From assembly GCF_000299415.1 (NCBI RefSeq), contig NZ_AMPG01000004.1, forward strand, positions 124,001-188,000: DNA of 64,000 nucleotides, read 5' to 3'. Origin of the DNA: Candidatus Microthrix parvicella Bio17-1 (GTDB lineage Bacteria; Actinomycetota; Acidimicrobiia; Acidimicrobiales; Microtrichaceae). The notes under the pieces were generated by a model. It saw only the letters and a program-made list of their open reading frames with translations. It searched no databases and was not told the origin of the DNA. Positions 57,822 through 64,000 of the stretch are shown here, in pieces; the stretch's first letter is position 1, and each line of letters begins with the position of its first letter. A program made the position numbers and the translations under genes.

Positions 57822-59162
57822 GTGCCCGACCCTGATGAGCCCAGAAGATCAGCCAAGCCGCAGCGGTTTCAGGCGCCGATCGGTACCCGTGACCTGCTCA
57901 GCCCCGAGTCGGAGCGGCGTCGGGCGCTGGTGGACCGCTTTGCCGAGCACGCAGCGCTGGCCGGATACCGCCACCTGGTCACCCCGATGTTTGAGGACCT
58001 CGGCGTGTTCACCCGGTTGGGTGCTGCGACCGATGTGGTCACCAAGGAGATGTACGACTTCACCGACAAGGGCGGTCGTCGCATGGCACTGCGCCCCGAA
58101 CTGACCGCTTCGGTGTGCAGGGCGTTCACCGAGCACAACCCGGCGGTGTTGCCGTGGAAGGTCTGGTATTCCGGTCCTCAGTTTCGTCATGAGAAGCCGC
58201 AGAAGGGTCGGTACCGGCAGTTCGATCAGGTGGGCGTCGAGGCGCTTGGATCGGAGGACCCCGATCTGGACACCGAGTCGATCGCCCTCGCCTGGCGGTT
58301 CTTTGACGACCTGGGGCTTCGACGCGTGCGGCTGCTGGTGAACTCGCTGGGCGAGGCCACCGAACGCGCCCGGTACGTGGAGGCGCTGGCTGACTACCTT
58401 GCCCGTCACACCGACGCGCTGTCGGACGCCGCCGTAGCCACGCTGGCCCGAAACCCGCTGAGGGTTCTCGACTCAAAACGCCCTGAGGACGGGTACGTGA
58501 TCGCCGGGGCGCCGCAATTGTCGGACTTTCTCGGCGTGGCGTCGGTGACTCACTTCGAGCGGGTGCTCGCCGGGCTGGACTCGCTTGGCATCGACGCCGA
58601 GGTGTCGCCCAAGCTGGTGCGCGGGCTCGACTACTACCGCCGTACCACGTTCGAGTTCACCGCCGAGAGCCTGGACGCGTCCCAGAACGCCGTCGGCGGG
58701 GGCGGACGCTACGACGGGCTGGTCGAGGCACTGGGCGGTAAACCCACCGCCGGCGTCGGCTTTGCGTTGGGTGTCGACCGCACGCTGCTGGCCTGCGATG
58801 CCGAAGGGGTGTTTGGCCCGGTCGAGAGGACGGTCGAGTGCTTCGTGGTGGACACGACCGGTGGCCTGACCGGCTACGAGATCACCGAGGCGCTTCGACG
58901 TGCCGGGGTGGCCACCGATCGCAGTTGGGCCGGCGAGCTTACCGACGAGGGTCTTGGGCGTCCTCGCTCGATGAAGGCGCAGATGAAGGCGGCTGATCGC
59001 TCTGGAGCGAACCTGGCGGTGCTGATGGGACCAGACGAATTGGAGGTTGGAGCGGCAACGATTCGTCGGTTGCGGGCAGGTCCTGATCAGGCGCCGTCCG
59101 CTCAGCGGCGGGTGCCGTTGTCCCGGGTGGTGTCCGAGGTTCAGACCGAACTGGGCCGCTGA
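57822..59162 (+). CDS. hisS: histidyl-tRNA synthetase
   Basis: 446 residues. Class II motifs are present: motif 1 region HLVTPMFEDLGVF, motif 2 WYSGPQFRHEKPQKGRYRQFDQVGVE, HisA box VRGLDYYRRTTFEF and motif 3 AGVGFALGVDRTLLA. The C-terminal anticodon-binding domain is complete. GTG at 57822 gives a short N-terminus before FQAPIGTRDLLSPES. The last 224 bases are overlapped on the opposite strand by the end of the large hydrolase/phosphoesterase gene. Confidence 0.96.
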   Translation: MPDPDEPRRSAKPQRFQAPIGTRDLLSPESERRRALVDRFAEHAALAGYRHLVTPMFEDLGVFTRLGAATDVVTKEMYDFTDKGGRRMALRPELTASVCRAFTEHNPAVLPWKVWYSGPQFRHEKPQKGRYRQFDQVGVEALGSEDPDLDTESIALAWRFFDDLGLRRVRLLVNSLGEATERARYVEALADYLARHTDALSDAAVATLARNPLRVLDSKRPEDGYVIAGAPQLSDFLGVASVTHFERVLAGLDSLGIDAEVSPKLVRGLDYYRRTTFEFTAESLDASQNAVGGGGRYDGLVEALGGKPTAGVGFALGVDRTLLACDAEGVFGPVERTVECFVVDTTGGLTGYEITEALRRAGVATDRSWAGELTDEGLGRPRSMKAQMKAADRSGANLAVLMGPDELEVGAATIRRLRAGPDQAPSAQRRVPLSRVVSEVQTELGR

Positions 59163-62100
59163 CCCCGGAGCCGATGCGATTCGGCGACACGGTGAAGGGT
59201 GGCTCGATCAACTGCGGATCGCTGGCGAACACCGCCGGGTGGGCGTCGATCCCCACGCCGTCCTTCGGTGCGGTCCGGCCGAGCGGCCGCCGGGTACGTC
59301 GCAGCCCAACCGGGTACACGGTGAGGTCTCCGTTCGGCTCAACCCGAATGCGGAGGAAGTTCTTGTGTGTGGTCAGGCGAAGCGCTGAGAACACCTCGTT
59401 GGTGTGCATGCCCAGGGTCAGGTTGGAAACAACCAGATAGGCGGCCAGGGTCCACGCACAAAACAGGGCGCCCAACACCGTGGCGACACCGACCGTGATG
59501 ACCCCGCCCACGATTGCCGGCGCCGACAGCGTGACCCCGAGCAGGGTGGTCGGGTCGCGGCCGGTCACCAGGCCGCCCACGTGCCTGCCCAGGCCCGCGG
59601 CCCAGCCGAGCACCACGCCGATGACGATCAGTTGCGCCAGCCCGTGGACGAAGCCGGCCGTGCGGGCGACCACGACGGAGGCCCGGTCGGCCGCCTCGGG
59701 CTGCGCGAACAGGGTCGTCCCGATGAGCACGGCCGCCAGGGGCAGCCACGACAGGGGGCTGGCCCAGTACTCGGCCATCAGGTGGCCGGACAGGCCACCC
59801 AGGCCTCGCAGCGTTCCCTGATCCCCAACGGTGAAGATGGCGATCATTGCGAAGATCGCAGAGATCGCACCGGTCACTGCAAGGAACCCCGGGTTGATGA
59901 ACGGAAAACCAAGGTGCCGGACGAGCGCCCGTCGGGAGGCAACAAAGCCGGGGAACACCGCGCGTAGGTGCAGCGTCCGAGGCCCGAAGCGCCCGGTGGC
60001 GTCGGTGAGCGCAAACGCAGTGTCGAGGCCGGCCGGATCATCGCCCGGATCATCGCCCGGATCATCGCCCACCGCATGGTTGACACCCAGGGGCCAGACA
60101 CCCGCCGAACGTTGTCGTCGGCGCCGGAGTTGGTGGGTGGGATGGGTGAAGGCGCCGCCGCCACCGGCGGTCACATAGTGAACGCCGCTGACGGGGTCGG
60201 CGAGGTGGGCGTAGTGATGGCTGTCGCCGCTGACGAACAAGGCCACCCGTCGGGGGTCACCCAGGGTGTCGAGGATGAAGCGATCCAACGACACCTGGGC
60301 CTCGACGTGGCGGTGCCCGTCCGCCCATGCCGGCGTGGGCCAGGCGAGAATCAGGCGAACCTCGTCGCCAAGGCTCGCCCCGATGCGCGTGAAATAGTCC
60401 AACTGAACCGGGTCGACGTCGCTGCCGGAGGAGCCGCCGTCGACCGCAAACAGCATCCACCCCGGGGCAACCTGCACGGCGGCATAACTGCGGCGCTGCA
60501 CGGTGCGCCACACCCCCAGGCGACCCTGGTCGCACAGCAGTGCTGAGAATCCGTCGAGACCGTCATACCAATCGTGATTGCCCGGTATGGCAACCACGAC
60601 CGGGTCGGTGCCGTCGGGCGCGGCTTCCAACCCGTCGCAGGCCTGTTGATAGGGCCCGGTCAGGCGATCGCGGTAGGCGGCGGACGTGCCCACCGGGTAG
60701 GCGAGATCCCCGCCGATCACCAGAAGCGAACCGCGCGGCAGGGTCACGTCGGGTCCGTCGGGTCGGGGGCGCGCGGCCAGTTCGACGGCGTCGGTCAGCT
60801 CGACGTTGCCGGCCAGATCGATGGCCTGGGTCATCGTGGTCGGCCGACCCTCCGGCCCGCGACCGATGAGTCCTCGCGCCAGATGCCAGGCCACCGCCGT
60901 GGTTGGCACGTGACCGTCGCCGGTGTCGGCCACGTAGTCCATCCACACGGGCTGCGGGGCGGTGCCCCGCTCAGGTTCGGGACGGCGCCGTGCCTCGTCA
61001 AGGTTGATCACCTCGGCGTCCGGGTCGAGTGCGGCCAGCACTTCGCGTCGGTCTGCAAAAGGCTTCACCGCCTCGGTCACGCTCAAGCTGGAGCCCGCGC
61101 GGAACAACACCGACGGATCGAACCAACCCACCATGGGCCTGGGCGAGAACCGGATACGACCGAGCCGGGGGAGTACGCCTCCGGGTAGGGGAGGCGGCGT
61201 GGCCAACAGAAGAAGCTCGATGCCTCGACGCACCTCGATGTCGTCGAACGCCGGGGTGTGCCCAACCCCGCCGAGGGGCATCTCCACCGGCCCCCTTGGC
61301 GCCACGTGCCGGGCCGGGCCGAACCCGCTCTTCGGTGGGTAATCCATGCCAACGGGCCCGCCCACCGGATCTCCACGACGCCAGGCGTTGATCCACGCCG
61401 CGCCCGTGCCCGACCGGTCCGCCAAGTGCTCGGCCAGCGGTATCAGCGCCTCGGGAGCAAATTGATGAGGAAAGAACCGGCCGTACAACGGACCCAGCGG
61501 ACAGGCATGGGTGACCAGCGATGTACCCGACAGGTTCAGGCCGCCTCCGGCCAAACCTGCCAGCGCGCTGACGGCCAACACCGAGCCCTGGCTGTGGGCC
61601 GACACCACCACCTGGCGCCCCTCCTTCAACGCATCAACCACCTGGAGCTGCAGCTGTGGCACCACGATCTCGGAGTACGGCGTAATGGCCAGCGGATGAA
61701 ACCTGCGAGGCCAGAAGGTCAGCACCTCCCAAACGGACGCCACCCACGGACGCATTCGGGGCAGGTAGCGGGTGGCCCCGGCGGCCAGCCCGGCACCCAG
61801 TGCCAGCAGCAGCGGCGCTGCGGCGGCCAGCCGGGTGAGCCAGCCGGCGTCGGGCCCCTGGATCTGCACCGGCCAGGGGGCGAGCCAGTCCGCCGGTGGT
61901 TGGAAGCGGTGGATGAAAAGGCACAGTCCGACGCCGAATGACACGCCGACGCCGGCCGTTCCGATCAGGTCGATGCCACGAATCGCGCCCTGCAACGCCC
62001 AGAGCGGGCGCGGCACCCGCTGGGCGTCCGCTGGTGGGACGACGGCGGCGTTGCCACCCGCCCTCACGGCGGCGACGATCGCCAACACCGTCGCCATGGC

Positions 62101-63096
62101 CGCAGCGGCGACAACGCCGGCGGTGAACCCCTCCAGCAGTGCCACCTCCGACCCCAGCACCACCTGCCCATCGGCCCGCATGCTGAGCGCTCGACGGGTC
62201 ACCAGGACGACGCCGGACCAACCGGCGTTGGACATGAGCACAGCCAGGCCCATGGCCACCGCCGGACCCGAGATCCTCCACCGGCGAGCCAACAGCCCCG
62301 GTCGTTCCAGCCCGATGATCGCCAGTACCGCCACCCCCGCCCATTGGACGGCGCCGATGGTGCTGAAGACATCCCCCAACCTGAGGGGGTTCGGCACGCC
62401 GGGTACCGGCACCGGCTGGGTGCCGGCCCGATGGAGCGCCAGCATGGTCGTTGCGGCCAGGGTGCCCAGCGCCGCCAGCTGGTGGACGACCGACAAGAAG
62501 GCAAGGTCGGGTTCGTGGGCGAAGAACGCGGGGTTGAAGACACGCTCGTCGTCGTCGACCCCGCCGCGGGTCTCCGGTGCCGCCGTATAGGGGGCAACCG
62601 CCTCCGCTGCGGCGCGGGTGCGACCGGCCAGTGCAAAGGAGGCCAGGATGCCCACCAGCGTGAGCGCCACCCCCAGCCACAAACGCCTCAGTGGGTGGTG
62701 GACCCAGACGTTGAGGCCGACCAGCCCCTGCCACGCCACGATGTCGATCAGCAGATGGGCCACCCAGGCCGTGGTGGTGATCGTGAGGCTGATGCCGATG
62801 AGGTGGGCCACCCGCCGACACCAGGCGGCCCGCCGCGGCGCGTTGGCCGGATGCATCCAACCGGCGACGTTCGCCAGCGTGAACGGCGCAAGCACCACCC
62901 AAAACGGCAGCCACCAATTGTCGGAGATCAGGTCGCCCCAGCGGAAGATTCGGACATCGGTGGGAAGCTGCGCGGCGCCGGGCGGAGGCAGGATCGTGTT
63001 ATCGGGAGGGTTTCCGACCCCATGGACCCGGAGCTCCAGCGGCGTGACGGTGGAGCCGTTCTGGCGGCCGTTGCTGGGCGGATCGCTTGGGCTCAT
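58939..63096 (-). CDS. membrane alpha/beta-hydrolase - metallophosphoesterase fusion protein
   Basis: 1385 residues. The N-terminus LELRVHGVGNPPDN matches a family of membrane hydrolases, followed by about eight to ten helices (70-480) and a soluble part with the nucleophile elbow SAHSQGS at S502. A calcineurin-like phosphoesterase follows: DYVADTGDGH, GGDLAYP with D797, PGNHDWYDG at 839-847, and SGDSHHYAH with H960/H961/H964. Four to five more helices lie at about 1065-1250. The tail of about 130 residues is Pro/Ser-rich and disordered; its last about 74 residues are antisense to hisS. ATG at 63096 follows GGGGG by 7 bases. Two catalytic modules on one membrane protein suggest sequential attack on a lipid, for example acyl release and phosphate removal, but this is inference. 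Confidence 0.78.
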   Translation of the reverse strand: MSPSDPPSNGRQNGSTVTPLELRVHGVGNPPDNTILPPPGAAQLPTDVRIFRWGDLISDNWWLPFWVVLAPFTLANVAGWMHPANAPRRAAWCRRVAHLIGISLTITTTAWVAHLLIDIVAWQGLVGLNVWVHHPLRRLWLGVALTLVGILASFALAGRTRAAAEAVAPYTAAPETRGGVDDDERVFNPAFFAHEPDLAFLSVVHQLAALGTLAATTMLALHRAGTQPVPVPGVPNPLRLGDVFSTIGAVQWAGVAVLAIIGLERPGLLARRWRISGPAVAMGLAVLMSNAGWSGVVLVTRRALSMRADGQVVLGSEVALLEGFTAGVVAAAAMATVLAIVAAVRAGGNAAVVPPADAQRVPRPLWALQGAIRGIDLIGTAGVGVSFGVGLCLFIHRFQPPADWLAPWPVQIQGPDAGWLTRLAAAAPLLLALGAGLAAGATRYLPRMRPWVASVWEVLTFWPRRFHPLAITPYSEIVVPQLQLQVVDALKEGRQVVVSAHSQGSVLAVSALAGLAGGGLNLSGTSLVTHACPLGPLYGRFFPHQFAPEALIPLAEHLADRSGTGAAWINAWRRGDPVGGPVGMDYPPKSGFGPARHVAPRGPVEMPLGGVGHTPAFDDIEVRRGIELLLLATPPPLPGGVLPRLGRIRFSPRPMVGWFDPSVLFRAGSSLSVTEAVKPFADRREVLAALDPDAEVINLDEARRRPEPERGTAPQPVWMDYVADTGDGHVPTTAVAWHLARGLIGRGPEGRPTTMTQAIDLAGNVELTDAVELAARPRPDGPDVTLPRGSLLVIGGDLAYPVGTSAAYRDRLTGPYQQACDGLEAAPDGTDPVVVAIPGNHDWYDGLDGFSALLCDQGRLGVWRTVQRRSYAAVQVAPGWMLFAVDGGSSGSDVDPVQLDYFTRIGASLGDEVRLILAWPTPAWADGHRHVEAQVSLDRFILDTLGDPRRVALFVSGDSHHYAHLADPVSGVHYVTAGGGGAFTHPTHQLRRRRQRSAGVWPLGVNHAVGDDPGDDPGDDPAGLDTAFALTDATGRFGPRTLHLRAVFPGFVASRRALVRHLGFPFINPGFLAVTGAISAIFAMIAIFTVGDQGTLRGLGGLSGHLMAEYWASPLSWLPLAAVLIGTTLFAQPEAADRASVVVARTAGFVHGLAQLIVIGVVLGWAAGLGRHVGGLVTGRDPTTLLGVTLSAPAIVGGVITVGVATVLGALFCAWTLAAYLVVSNLTLGMHTNEVFSALRLTTHKNFLRIRVEPNGDLTVYPVGLRRTRRPLGRTAPKDGVGIDAHPAVFASDPQLIEPPFTVSPNRIGSGVSGPVRSEPRTPPGTTAPAAERTAPDQDLPATDESLPLQPPIRLVPSAPPGSLQSDQPPSSAPSSSEDAQDPRR
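60034..60069. repeat. three 12-bp tandem copies encoding a G-D-D-P repeat
   Basis: CGGATCATCGCC is repeated three times (60034-60045, 60046-60057, 60058-60069). On the minus strand it encodes GDDP units in a loop after the phosphoesterase core. The repeat keeps the frame. Confidence 0.9.
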
Positions 63097-63117
63097 CGGT
63101 TTTCCCCCTGTGGTGGC

Positions 63118-63123
63118 ACGGTA
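63118..63123 (-). promoter_or_regulatory. putative -10 box (TACCGT) of the fusion gene
   Basis: Minus-strand TACCGT lies 21 bases before the ATG at 63096, leaving a short leader that contains GGGGG. No clear -35 is visible. Confidence 0.35.
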
Positions 63124-63157
63124 CCCGACCAGGTCGTTGGCCGTCGGCCGTCGGCCG

Positions 63158-64000
63158 TTAACGCTCGTGGCGCTCGATGCCCACGTCCAGGCCCGTGGCG
63201 TCCCACGGCTGAAGGCCCAGCAGGTCGGTGGCGGCGATGGCACCGGACCCAAGTGCACCGTCGGCCGCATCCACCAGCCGCCAGTTCAAGTACGGAGAGC
63301 CGAGGGCCTGTCCCTCGATGATGACGGCCCGCAGGTCGCCCGGCTCGAATTCGCAGCGTTCCTGAAGGATCGCCAGAAACCGTTCGTCGTGGAGGTGACC
63401 GTCACCGAAGTTCCAGCCGAGCACCATGCCCGCCACCATCTCCCCGTCGATGAGCTCGATCTCCGCGGGATCGAGCTGCGTTGCAGGGTCGGTATGGCGC
63501 GAATCGAGCACGACACCATCCGCCGCCATCGGGAGCAGCGCCGCCAAGGCCCGGCCGTGGAGGTGCATGGCCCGAAACGCCTGGCCGCGTCCAAGCGCAA
63601 CCGTGAGGTCGCCATCGCCTCCAAGGCGCTCCAACTGATGGGCCGGGGTGGCCGCCGCGCAGGGGAGTGCCTGCTCGATGCGATCGAGACAGCCCGGCCG
63701 TAACAACCACGTGCCGGTCGCCCAGTTGCCCGCGTAGTAGCGCATGGCCGGAAGAAACGACACCCGGTCGGGCCGGACGTTGCCGTAGGCGGGGATCACC
63801 ACCAGGCAGACGATGAGCACGGCGATCAGGAGCGGGTTGGAGAGGTCCCAGATCCGCACGTCGCCGTGCTGCCCGAACAGCACCACCGCCGAGTAGATGA
63901 AGAACAGGTTCCACTCGAGGGGAACGCCAAGGGGAAAGCTGGTGAGGATGGTCAGGTGGAAGCCCACGATGGCCACCAAGGTCAGCGTCCGAAGCGGCCC
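63158..64000 (-). CDS. DUF3556-like membrane protein, 5'-truncated
   Basis: The frame is open to the window edge, so the N-terminal part is missing; 280 codons are visible. Near the visible start are two hydrophobic helices separated by FPLGVPLEWNLFFIYSAVVLFG, a stretch typical of the DUF3556 proteins found in mycobacteria and relatives. A soluble C-terminal domain follows (YYAGNWATGTWLL; DGEMVAGMVLGWNFGDGHLHDE; LGLQPWDATGLDVG). The function of the family is unknown. It is on the same strand as the hydrolase-phosphoesterase gene, with a 61-base gap. TTG at 63977-63979 could serve as an internal start but is probably not the real one. Confidence 0.65.
   Translation of the reverse strand, partial: GPLRTLTLVAIVGFHLTILTSFPLGVPLEWNLFFIYSAVVLFGQHGDVRIWDLSNPLLIAVLIVCLVVIPAYGNVRPDRVSFLPAMRYYAGNWATGTWLLRPGCLDRIEQALPCAAATPAHQLERLGGDGDLTVALGRGQAFRAMHLHGRALAALLPMAADGVVLDSRHTDPATQLDPAEIELIDGEMVAGMVLGWNFGDGHLHDERFLAILQERCEFEPGDLRAVIIEGQALGSPYLNWRLVDAADGALGSGAIAATDLLGLQPWDATGLDVGIERHER

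Follow-up and report, generated by a model that had tools for sequence, protein, structure and literature searches.

The window analysed here is a stretch of 64,000 nucleotides from Candidatus Microthrix parvicella Bio17-1 (contig NZ_AMPG01000004.1, positions 124,001 to 188,000 of the forward strand), and the gene in question lies near its end, on the minus strand, where positions 58939-63096 are read as a single open frame of 1385 codons plus a stop. Its start ATG has GGGGGAAAACCG before it. A start shifted to a longer ATG at 63270 was rejected because it would overlap the upstream DUF3556 frame, which ends at 63158. From its sequence, the gene joins head to tail two modules that are separate proteins in relatives: an N-terminal module (N module) resembling alpha/beta hydrolases and a C-terminal module (C module) with the predicted fold of purple acid phosphatases (PAPs). 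A preliminary description of this DNA had seen in it a membrane protein joining a serine-hydrolase-like module to a calcineurin-like metallophosphoesterase. The parts are as follows, in window coordinates.

58939..63096, minus strand: the fusion gene, an open frame of 1385 codons plus stop, in one copy in the genome (4.2 Mb, 13 contigs)
61201..63096, minus strand: N module, residues 1-632, a membrane bundle inserted in an alpha/beta-hydrolase-like domain, by alignment to standalone proteins
61150..61200, minus strand: junction, residues 633-649, a linker of about 17 residues, from the module ends and the junction DNA
59167..61149, minus strand: C module, residues 650-1310, predicted PAP-fold metallophosphoesterase with an inserted membrane bundle (AlphaFold; Z 25.0)

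The two-module signal is beyond chance, because each half aligns over its full length with independent proteins, with 64 invariant columns in an alignment of five sequences for the N half and 32 in an alignment of 52 sequences for the C half. The claims that one 1385-residue frame carries two membrane blocks, and that its modules are known from separate proteins, were borne out: there are nine hydrophobic segments in residues 63-441 and four in 1072-1213, standalone relatives were found for each module, and the motifs named at the time were located (VHGVG at residues 24-28, Ser502 within SAHSQG, GGDLAYP, GNHDWYDG and GDSHHYAH). A search for the architecture as a whole recovered both modules apart, and it returned no second fused protein in the samples.

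In a sample of 99 relatives, which includes the genome of the window, the full protein matched eight genomes, its own counted; in the seven others every match starts at residue 592 or later, and residues 1-600 matched the own genome alone. The phylum sample, again with the own genome included, has matches to residues 1-600 in 32 of 396 genomes and to residues 601-1385 in 20 of 396, and nine other genomes carry both modules at separate places. Matches were found in 47 of 395 genomes of the class and in one of 33 of the family, which is the own genome; the other 32 have neither module. The genus sample consists of this one genome, and there is therefore no independent copy of the fusion. A scan of named genomes for standalone C modules yielded 80 loci, kept out of at least 307 confirmed candidate stretches and spanning Actinomycetota, Pseudomonadota, Bacteroidota, Acidobacteriota, Myxococcota and others, and a profile of the N module found zero matches within up to 8 kb on each side of them. 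In eight of these loci the frame continues upstream of the C module for over 120 residues; the seven that were read (135 to 634 residues; L191, with 184 residues, was left out) were rejected as other N-terminal fusions, since they look like out-of-frame translation of GC-rich DNA and not like domains. Across 239 loci, the only frames holding both modules were those of the fusion gene itself, in four copies that overlap. Relatives of the N module occur at one place in viral contigs, which was found twice, and in one plasmid record covering 23% of the query. The window's protein had no match in PHROGs or NCBIfam, and a sequence search of the PDB gave no relative with a useful E-value. For two relatives of each module and for the DUF3556 protein, NCBIfam gave a single match, of an N relative to a phosphoglycerate mutase model at 20 bits (cut-off 320), which was judged to be chance. 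Among titles and abstract starts in PubMed Central (PMC), no open-licence paper was found that describes this fusion, or a bacterial family of PAP fold into which a membrane bundle is inserted.

The N module fits an alpha/beta hydrolase in which a membrane bundle stands between the first strand and the nucleophile elbow, an assignment of fold that rests on the following motifs.

63013..63027, minus strand: VHGVG, residues 24-28, proposed oxyanion-hole strand (H25 and G26 in 20/20 sequences)
61585..61602, minus strand: SAHSQG nucleophile elbow, residues 499-504, Ser502 in 20/20 by alignment, strand-turn-helix in the model
61369..61371, minus strand: Asp576, candidate catalytic acid, 20/20 by alignment
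61258..61260, minus strand: His613 in GHT, candidate catalytic histidine, near-invariant in a 12-sequence alignment

The oxyanion-hole role of VHGVG is one that we take from the alpha/beta-hydrolase fold, and the roles given to alpha/beta-hydrolase and PAP motifs beyond those in the cited papers are likewise presumed from what is generally held of these folds. The set behind these counts comprises 20 distinct sequences from 64 frames, the window's included, and H25, G26, H501, S502, Q503, G504, W568, N570 and D576 are invariant in all of them. The elbow has the small-x-Ser-x-small form, as A500-H501-S502-Q503-G504, with A500 in 5/5 and H501 to G504 in 20/20. His613, in a GHT or GHS motif, is near-invariant among the 12 sequences and falls in a badly aligned stretch of the larger set (His in 9/20, a gap in 11/20). 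Pfam at E 0.01 finds no family for the window's N module or for 11 relatives.

For the C module, an AlphaFold model from 52 sequences (51 relatives and the window's) has a predicted local distance difference test score (pLDDT) of 81 and a predicted template modelling score (pTM) of 0.85. The top 24 rows of a Foldseek comparison of this model with the PDB are all PAPs or the PAP-like GAP50, and VIA-align gives Z values of 25.0 for mammalian PAP, 23.5 for GAP50, 19.3 for GpdQ, 19.1 for sweet potato PAP, 16.9 for Rv0805 and 16.6 for PhoD, the three best mammalian PAP rows having a root-mean-square deviation of 2.8-3.5 over 266-272 residues. The predicted fold has its clearest match in PAPs of the mammalian type. 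The alignment reaches about model residue 682, past the helices at 424-612, and the membrane bundle is therefore predicted to be an insertion within the PAP fold, which is rejoined by the strands that follow it.

59302..59364, minus strand: strands after the bundle, residues 1245-1265, rejoining the PAP fold (aligned to about model residue 682)

The two modules would thus have a common plan, a hydrolase fold interrupted by a membrane bundle, as modelled for C and as read from motifs for N. The general Metallophos profile of Pfam (PF00149) scores 18.9 and 20.5 bits on the window's protein against a gathering score of 21.5; at E 1e-3 it matches 29 of the 52 members, with 27.8 bits for the relative L155. 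It was the only family matched at this threshold among the 52, and the PhoD family profile gave no match.

The metal site of the C module was read from 99 distinct sequences, the window's included, that remained of 159 frames after duplicates and sequences of short coverage had been removed. Its motifs are listed here.

60913..60927, minus strand: DTGDG, residues 724-728, Asp724 being the DxG ferric ligand, 99/99 in the alignment
60694..60714, minus strand: GGDLAYP, residues 795-801, Asp797 and Tyr800 being the GDxxY ligands, each 99/99 in the alignment
60559..60582, minus strand: GNHDWYDG, residues 839-846, with Asn840 in 94/99 and His841 and Asp842 in 99/99 of the alignment
60337..60339, minus strand: Pro920, at the position of the PAP VxxH histidine, with no His in the 99 aligned sequences
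60205..60228, minus strand: GDSHHYAH, residues 957-964, Asp958 replacing the first His of GHxH and His960 in 99/99 of the alignment

All four equivalents of the PAP ferric-site ligands (D724, D797, Y800 and H960) are invariant in the 99 sequences, and so are H841 and D842. Asp724 was assigned from motif order and the range of the structural match, and the other ferric ligands from profile alignment as well; this alignment to the positions of human PAP has an E of 0.75, which alone is not significant, and it agrees with the structural match. The second metal site is different. The second metal of PAPs has as its ligands two His, one Asp and one Asn (PMC4223295); here both His are gone, Asn is kept in 94/99 and Asp797 in 99/99, and the C module is therefore not filed as a PAP. 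The VxxH position holds Ala in 50, Pro in 38, Gly in 8 and Ser in 3 of the 99, the position of the first GHxH His holds Asp in 93, Gly in 5 and Asn in 1, and the Asn840 position holds Asn in 94, Ser in 4 and Thr in 1. The last two vary jointly (Asn with Asp in 93, Ser or Thr with Gly in 5, Asn with Asn in 1), as expected if both residues hold one metal. The complete calcineurin metal set of the preliminary description thus did not stand: what is found is a PAP-like set without both second-site histidines, one of them replaced by Asp958. By its sequences and its model the C module would be PAP-like with a rebuilt second metal site, as PhoD appears to have been rebuilt in another way.

In five sequences (L013, which is the same gene as L003, and L007, L009, L073 and L230), the equivalents of both Asn840 and Asp958 are lost and all ferric-site ligands are kept. 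These double variants are candidate natural one-metal forms; they may be one clade and not necessarily five events.

Membrane topology was judged from hydropathy, from the model of the C module and from the distribution of basic residues in loops.

61774..62910, minus strand: first membrane bundle, residues 63-441, nine hydrophobic segments by hydropathy, the first of which (63-81) probably does not cross
59380..59946, minus strand: second membrane bundle, residues 1051-1239, four long helices inserted within the PAP fold, by hydropathy and the model

Apart from the segments of the two bundles, the only candidate at the hydropathy cut used is 504-522, which is the helix after Ser502. From 523 to 1071 there is no hydrophobic segment at this cut, and both catalytic domains should therefore lie on the same face; the question of whether the active sites lie on opposite faces of the membrane, raised when the protein was first described, is answered by the prediction of one face, with no transmembrane segment between them. 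Lysine plus arginine counts in the loops of the N bundle, averaged over 20 sequences, run 4.4, 2.4, 5.6, 1.7, 3.8, 1.5, 7.6, 1.4 and 8.4. Basic loops are in many cases longer than the others, and per residue the values still alternate (0.22, 0.09, 0.13, 0.09, 0.17, 0.06, 0.18, 0.08 and 0.14), so that the side of Ser502 would be inside. About eight crossings were taken for this bundle, because nine would put the N terminus outside, away from Ser502, and because segment 63-81 is the one of the nine that insertion energy favours least. Among the loops of the C bundle, the middle one is on average the richest in basic residues (2.83 vs 1.63 and 0.75). Together these results point to a cytosolic placement of both active sites, which they do not prove.

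The fusion gene stands between hisS and aspS. The 3' end of hisS, at position 59162 of the window, is overlapped by the fusion gene on the opposite strand, and aspS starts past the end of the window. Within the interval from hisS to aspS (59000-64000; L103), the only frames of at least 330 codons are the fusion gene and a DUF3556 gene, both on the opposite strand.

58939..59163, minus strand: C-terminal tail, residues 1312-1385, antisense to the hisS 3' end, with a GC content at third codon positions (GC3) of 0.55
63158..64000, minus strand: DUF3556 gene, upstream and co-directional, continuing past the window end (PF12077, E 1.3e-190)

Of the family genomes in which hisS was matched, 14/14 have aspS immediately after it (six were also read by eye), and the pair is present in 5/6 genomes of the order. 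The sixth, G033 (L145), has behind hisS only a weak aspS-like match at 29% identity, which sets it apart from the other 19 compared genomes. An assembly chimera was judged unlikely, because a false join inside the gene would need to have reunited by chance two old neighbours that adjoin in 14/14 family genomes; as far as the assembly shows, the fusion is genuine, and the suspicion that it was made by the assembly has the synteny of hisS and aspS across the insert against it. The conserved part of the C module stops near LIEPP (1296-1300), and the tail lies outside the conserved domain; its GC3 over the last 74 codons is 0.55 vs 0.70-0.97 in the preceding blocks. The antisense tail with its lowered GC3 probably records a recent insertion at the stop of hisS, and it seems that the insertion landed there and lost its own stop. 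The DUF3556 product is a membrane protein (PF12077), and PMC8556283 reports for growth on polyethylene an up-regulated Rhodococcus membrane protein that is 67% identical to a DUF3556 protein.

The neighbourhoods of the 80 standalone C modules were counted from crude gene calls, without a background rate, 65 of the loci having at least two genes on each side. The families of the neighbours were checked by Pfam on examples. A GMC oxidoreductase lies within two genes of the C module at 20/80 loci; a GMC cluster formed by single linkage within five genes is the looser measure (24/80). An alpha/beta hydrolase of one family occurs within five genes at 13/80 and within two genes at 9/80, and a patatin is present at 5/80. 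These neighbourhoods may point to lipid or sterol-like substrates. Individual loci have these genes in clusters: L090:3244-8445 holds a GMC oxidoreductase, a C-module phosphoesterase and a patatin-like protein, and L096:5586-10538 a GMC oxidoreductase, a C-module phosphoesterase and an alpha/beta hydrolase. In the own genome, another contig (L247:6735-10250) encodes a GMC oxidoreductase fused to an alpha/beta hydrolase (1171 aa).

Several known systems resemble parts of this protein. The C module shares with mammalian low-molecular-weight PAPs the predicted fold, the DxG, GDxxY and GNHD motifs and the second His of GHxH, and it differs from them in having Ala, Pro, Gly or Ser at VxxH, Asp for the first GHxH His (93/99) and an inserted four-helix bundle. 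PhoD is not known to have a membrane bundle within its fold. As the C module would, it has a tyrosinate-bound Fe(III) and acidic second-site ligands in the place of His (PMC4223295). Set against this are its lower Z (16.6), the lack of a PhoD Pfam match in the 52 C members, and the ferric site, where the C module keeps both Asp in 99/99 and one of the two is Cys in PhoD of B. subtilis, although Asp is found in another subfamily of PhoD (PMC4223295 for both). Plasmodium GAP50 has the PAP fold (Z 23.5) and, from its PDB title, a membrane anchor; it is described as an anchor, whereas the C module keeps the ferric-site ligands in 99/99. Plasmid proteins of Azospirillum, Mesorhizobium and Rhizobium annotated 'metallophosphoesterase' match the C module at 29-30% identity (tblastn), and these have no N module, the Azospirillum one being followed by a 1143-aa 'alpha/beta fold hydrolase'. 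Standalone actinobacterial N-module proteins agree with residues 1-632 in length and motifs, and have no C module attached.

What the sequence itself establishes is the make-up from two modules, the shortness of the junction, the invariance of the ferric ligands and the lack of second-site histidines; that the C module has a PAP fold and that both active sites are cytosolic are predictions. The best supported reading is a putative bifunctional hydrolase of the cytosolic face, a serine esterase with an iron-dependent phosphoesterase. In full, it would be a real fusion, so far of one genome, whose two membrane hydrolases act at that face on one lipid-like class, and we hold it tentatively, at a little under an even chance. 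One chain would contain an alpha/beta hydrolase split by about eight helices and then a PAP-fold metallophosphoesterase split by four. The serine hydrolase would act on a carboxylic (acyl) ester, and the PAP-like domain would split a phosphoester by means of a tyrosinate-bound Fe(III), with a second metal presumably held by Asp797, Asn840 and Asp958. Amphipathic substrates may reach the active sites from the membrane, and both domains would most likely act on the same class of lipid-like molecule. That they process one lipid in sequence, in two steps, is a guess.

A number of observations weigh against this reading. Neither module has an assigned substrate, and no second genome with the fusion was found across the relative, phylum, class and family samples, metagenomes lying outside the search. 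The alpha/beta hydrolases near the standalone C modules belong to a family other than that of the N module. The C module is matched in 19 other genomes of the phylum sample. Nine of these matches, with E above 1e-9, were set aside, as they probably belong to another phosphoesterase group; of the ten strong ones, two (G296 and G471) have the N module vs 31/395, which is no clear enrichment. With the weak matches included, 9/19 have N vs the same 31/395, which would be an enrichment, and 7/9 of the weak ones carry it, so that the evidence for a partnership of the two fused modules is mixed. On the structural side, the template modelling scores (TM-scores) in the 24 Foldseek rows are low, at 0.22-0.26 by model and 0.28-0.54 by target, as is perhaps expected because of the large insertion, and plant PAPs (Z up to 19.1) tie with GpdQ. 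The N model, built from two sequences, has a pLDDT of 41.6 overall, its strand-Ser-helix elbow block reaching 69-82. The N bundle has nine segments above the hydropathy cut, not eight, and the C bundle's middle loop is more basic than both others in just 64/99 sequences.

The rival explanations are partly compatible with each other and with the best-supported one. That the fusion is recent and functionally neutral, its modules merely tethered and acting on unrelated substrates, is quite possible, although we rather doubt it. It occurs once in the samples, the absence of both modules from the other 32 family genomes makes the locus look newly acquired, the antisense hisS tail suggests recent insertion, and N accompanies only two of the ten strong C genomes. 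The same explanation must contend with two catalytic sets that are intact after the fusion and a linker that is short, with the recurrence of alpha/beta hydrolases near standalone C modules (13/80 loci), and with the 9/19 obtained when weak C matches are counted. A sequence or assembly error that joined two neighbouring genes is very unlikely. The genus is represented by this genome alone, zero stops occur in any forward frame of codons 601-667, where a frameshift error would leave no trace, and codon 606 is an internal ATG with a ribosome-site-like stretch upstream. This ATG, however, is located before His613, whose region is N module by alignment, and the linker has zero in-frame ATG, GTG or TTG; GC3 is steady over the junction (0.75, 0.78 and 0.82), and hisS and aspS flank the insert.

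Two further rivals concern what the domains do. The PAP-like domain could be a non-catalytic or mono-metal scaffold, with GAP50 (Z 23.5) among its nearest fold relatives and a VxxH position that is His-free in 99/99 and a first GHxH His replaced by Asp, Gly or Asn in 99/99; we regard this as unlikely, since a non-catalytic scaffold would be expected to show some loss, and the four ferric ligands and the His and Asp of GNHD are invariant in 99/99, with Asp958 and Asn840 changing together. Decidedly unlikely is the placement of both active sites outward, where envelope phospholipid or glycopolymer phosphoesters would be processed. The nine segments of the N bundle permit other topologies, and PhoD is extracytoplasmic (PMC4223295), but the N terminus shows on inspection no signal-peptide-like hydrophobic stretch, and the basic loops put the Ser502 side inside.

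The bifunctional cytosolic-face hydrolase can be carried one step further, to a proposal that we consider rather unlikely as a whole: the C module would add a third class to the tyrosinate-iron phosphoesterases now represented by PAPs and PhoD, with the ferric site of PAPs, a second site of Asp958 and Asn840, a cytosolic position and a built-in membrane bundle, taking part in lipid processing alongside a GMC oxidoreductase, a patatin and an alpha/beta hydrolase, and here fused as a bifunctional membrane lipid esterase-phosphatase. The C module is the more interesting part of the protein, as a widespread membrane family of predicted PAP-like fold that only the general Metallophos model of Pfam matches. 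If the proposal is true, a membrane family annotated merely as 'metallophosphoesterase', where its annotation was seen, would consist of iron enzymes with a new kind of ligand set, and the fusion, together with the gene neighbours, would name the likely partners of the C module.

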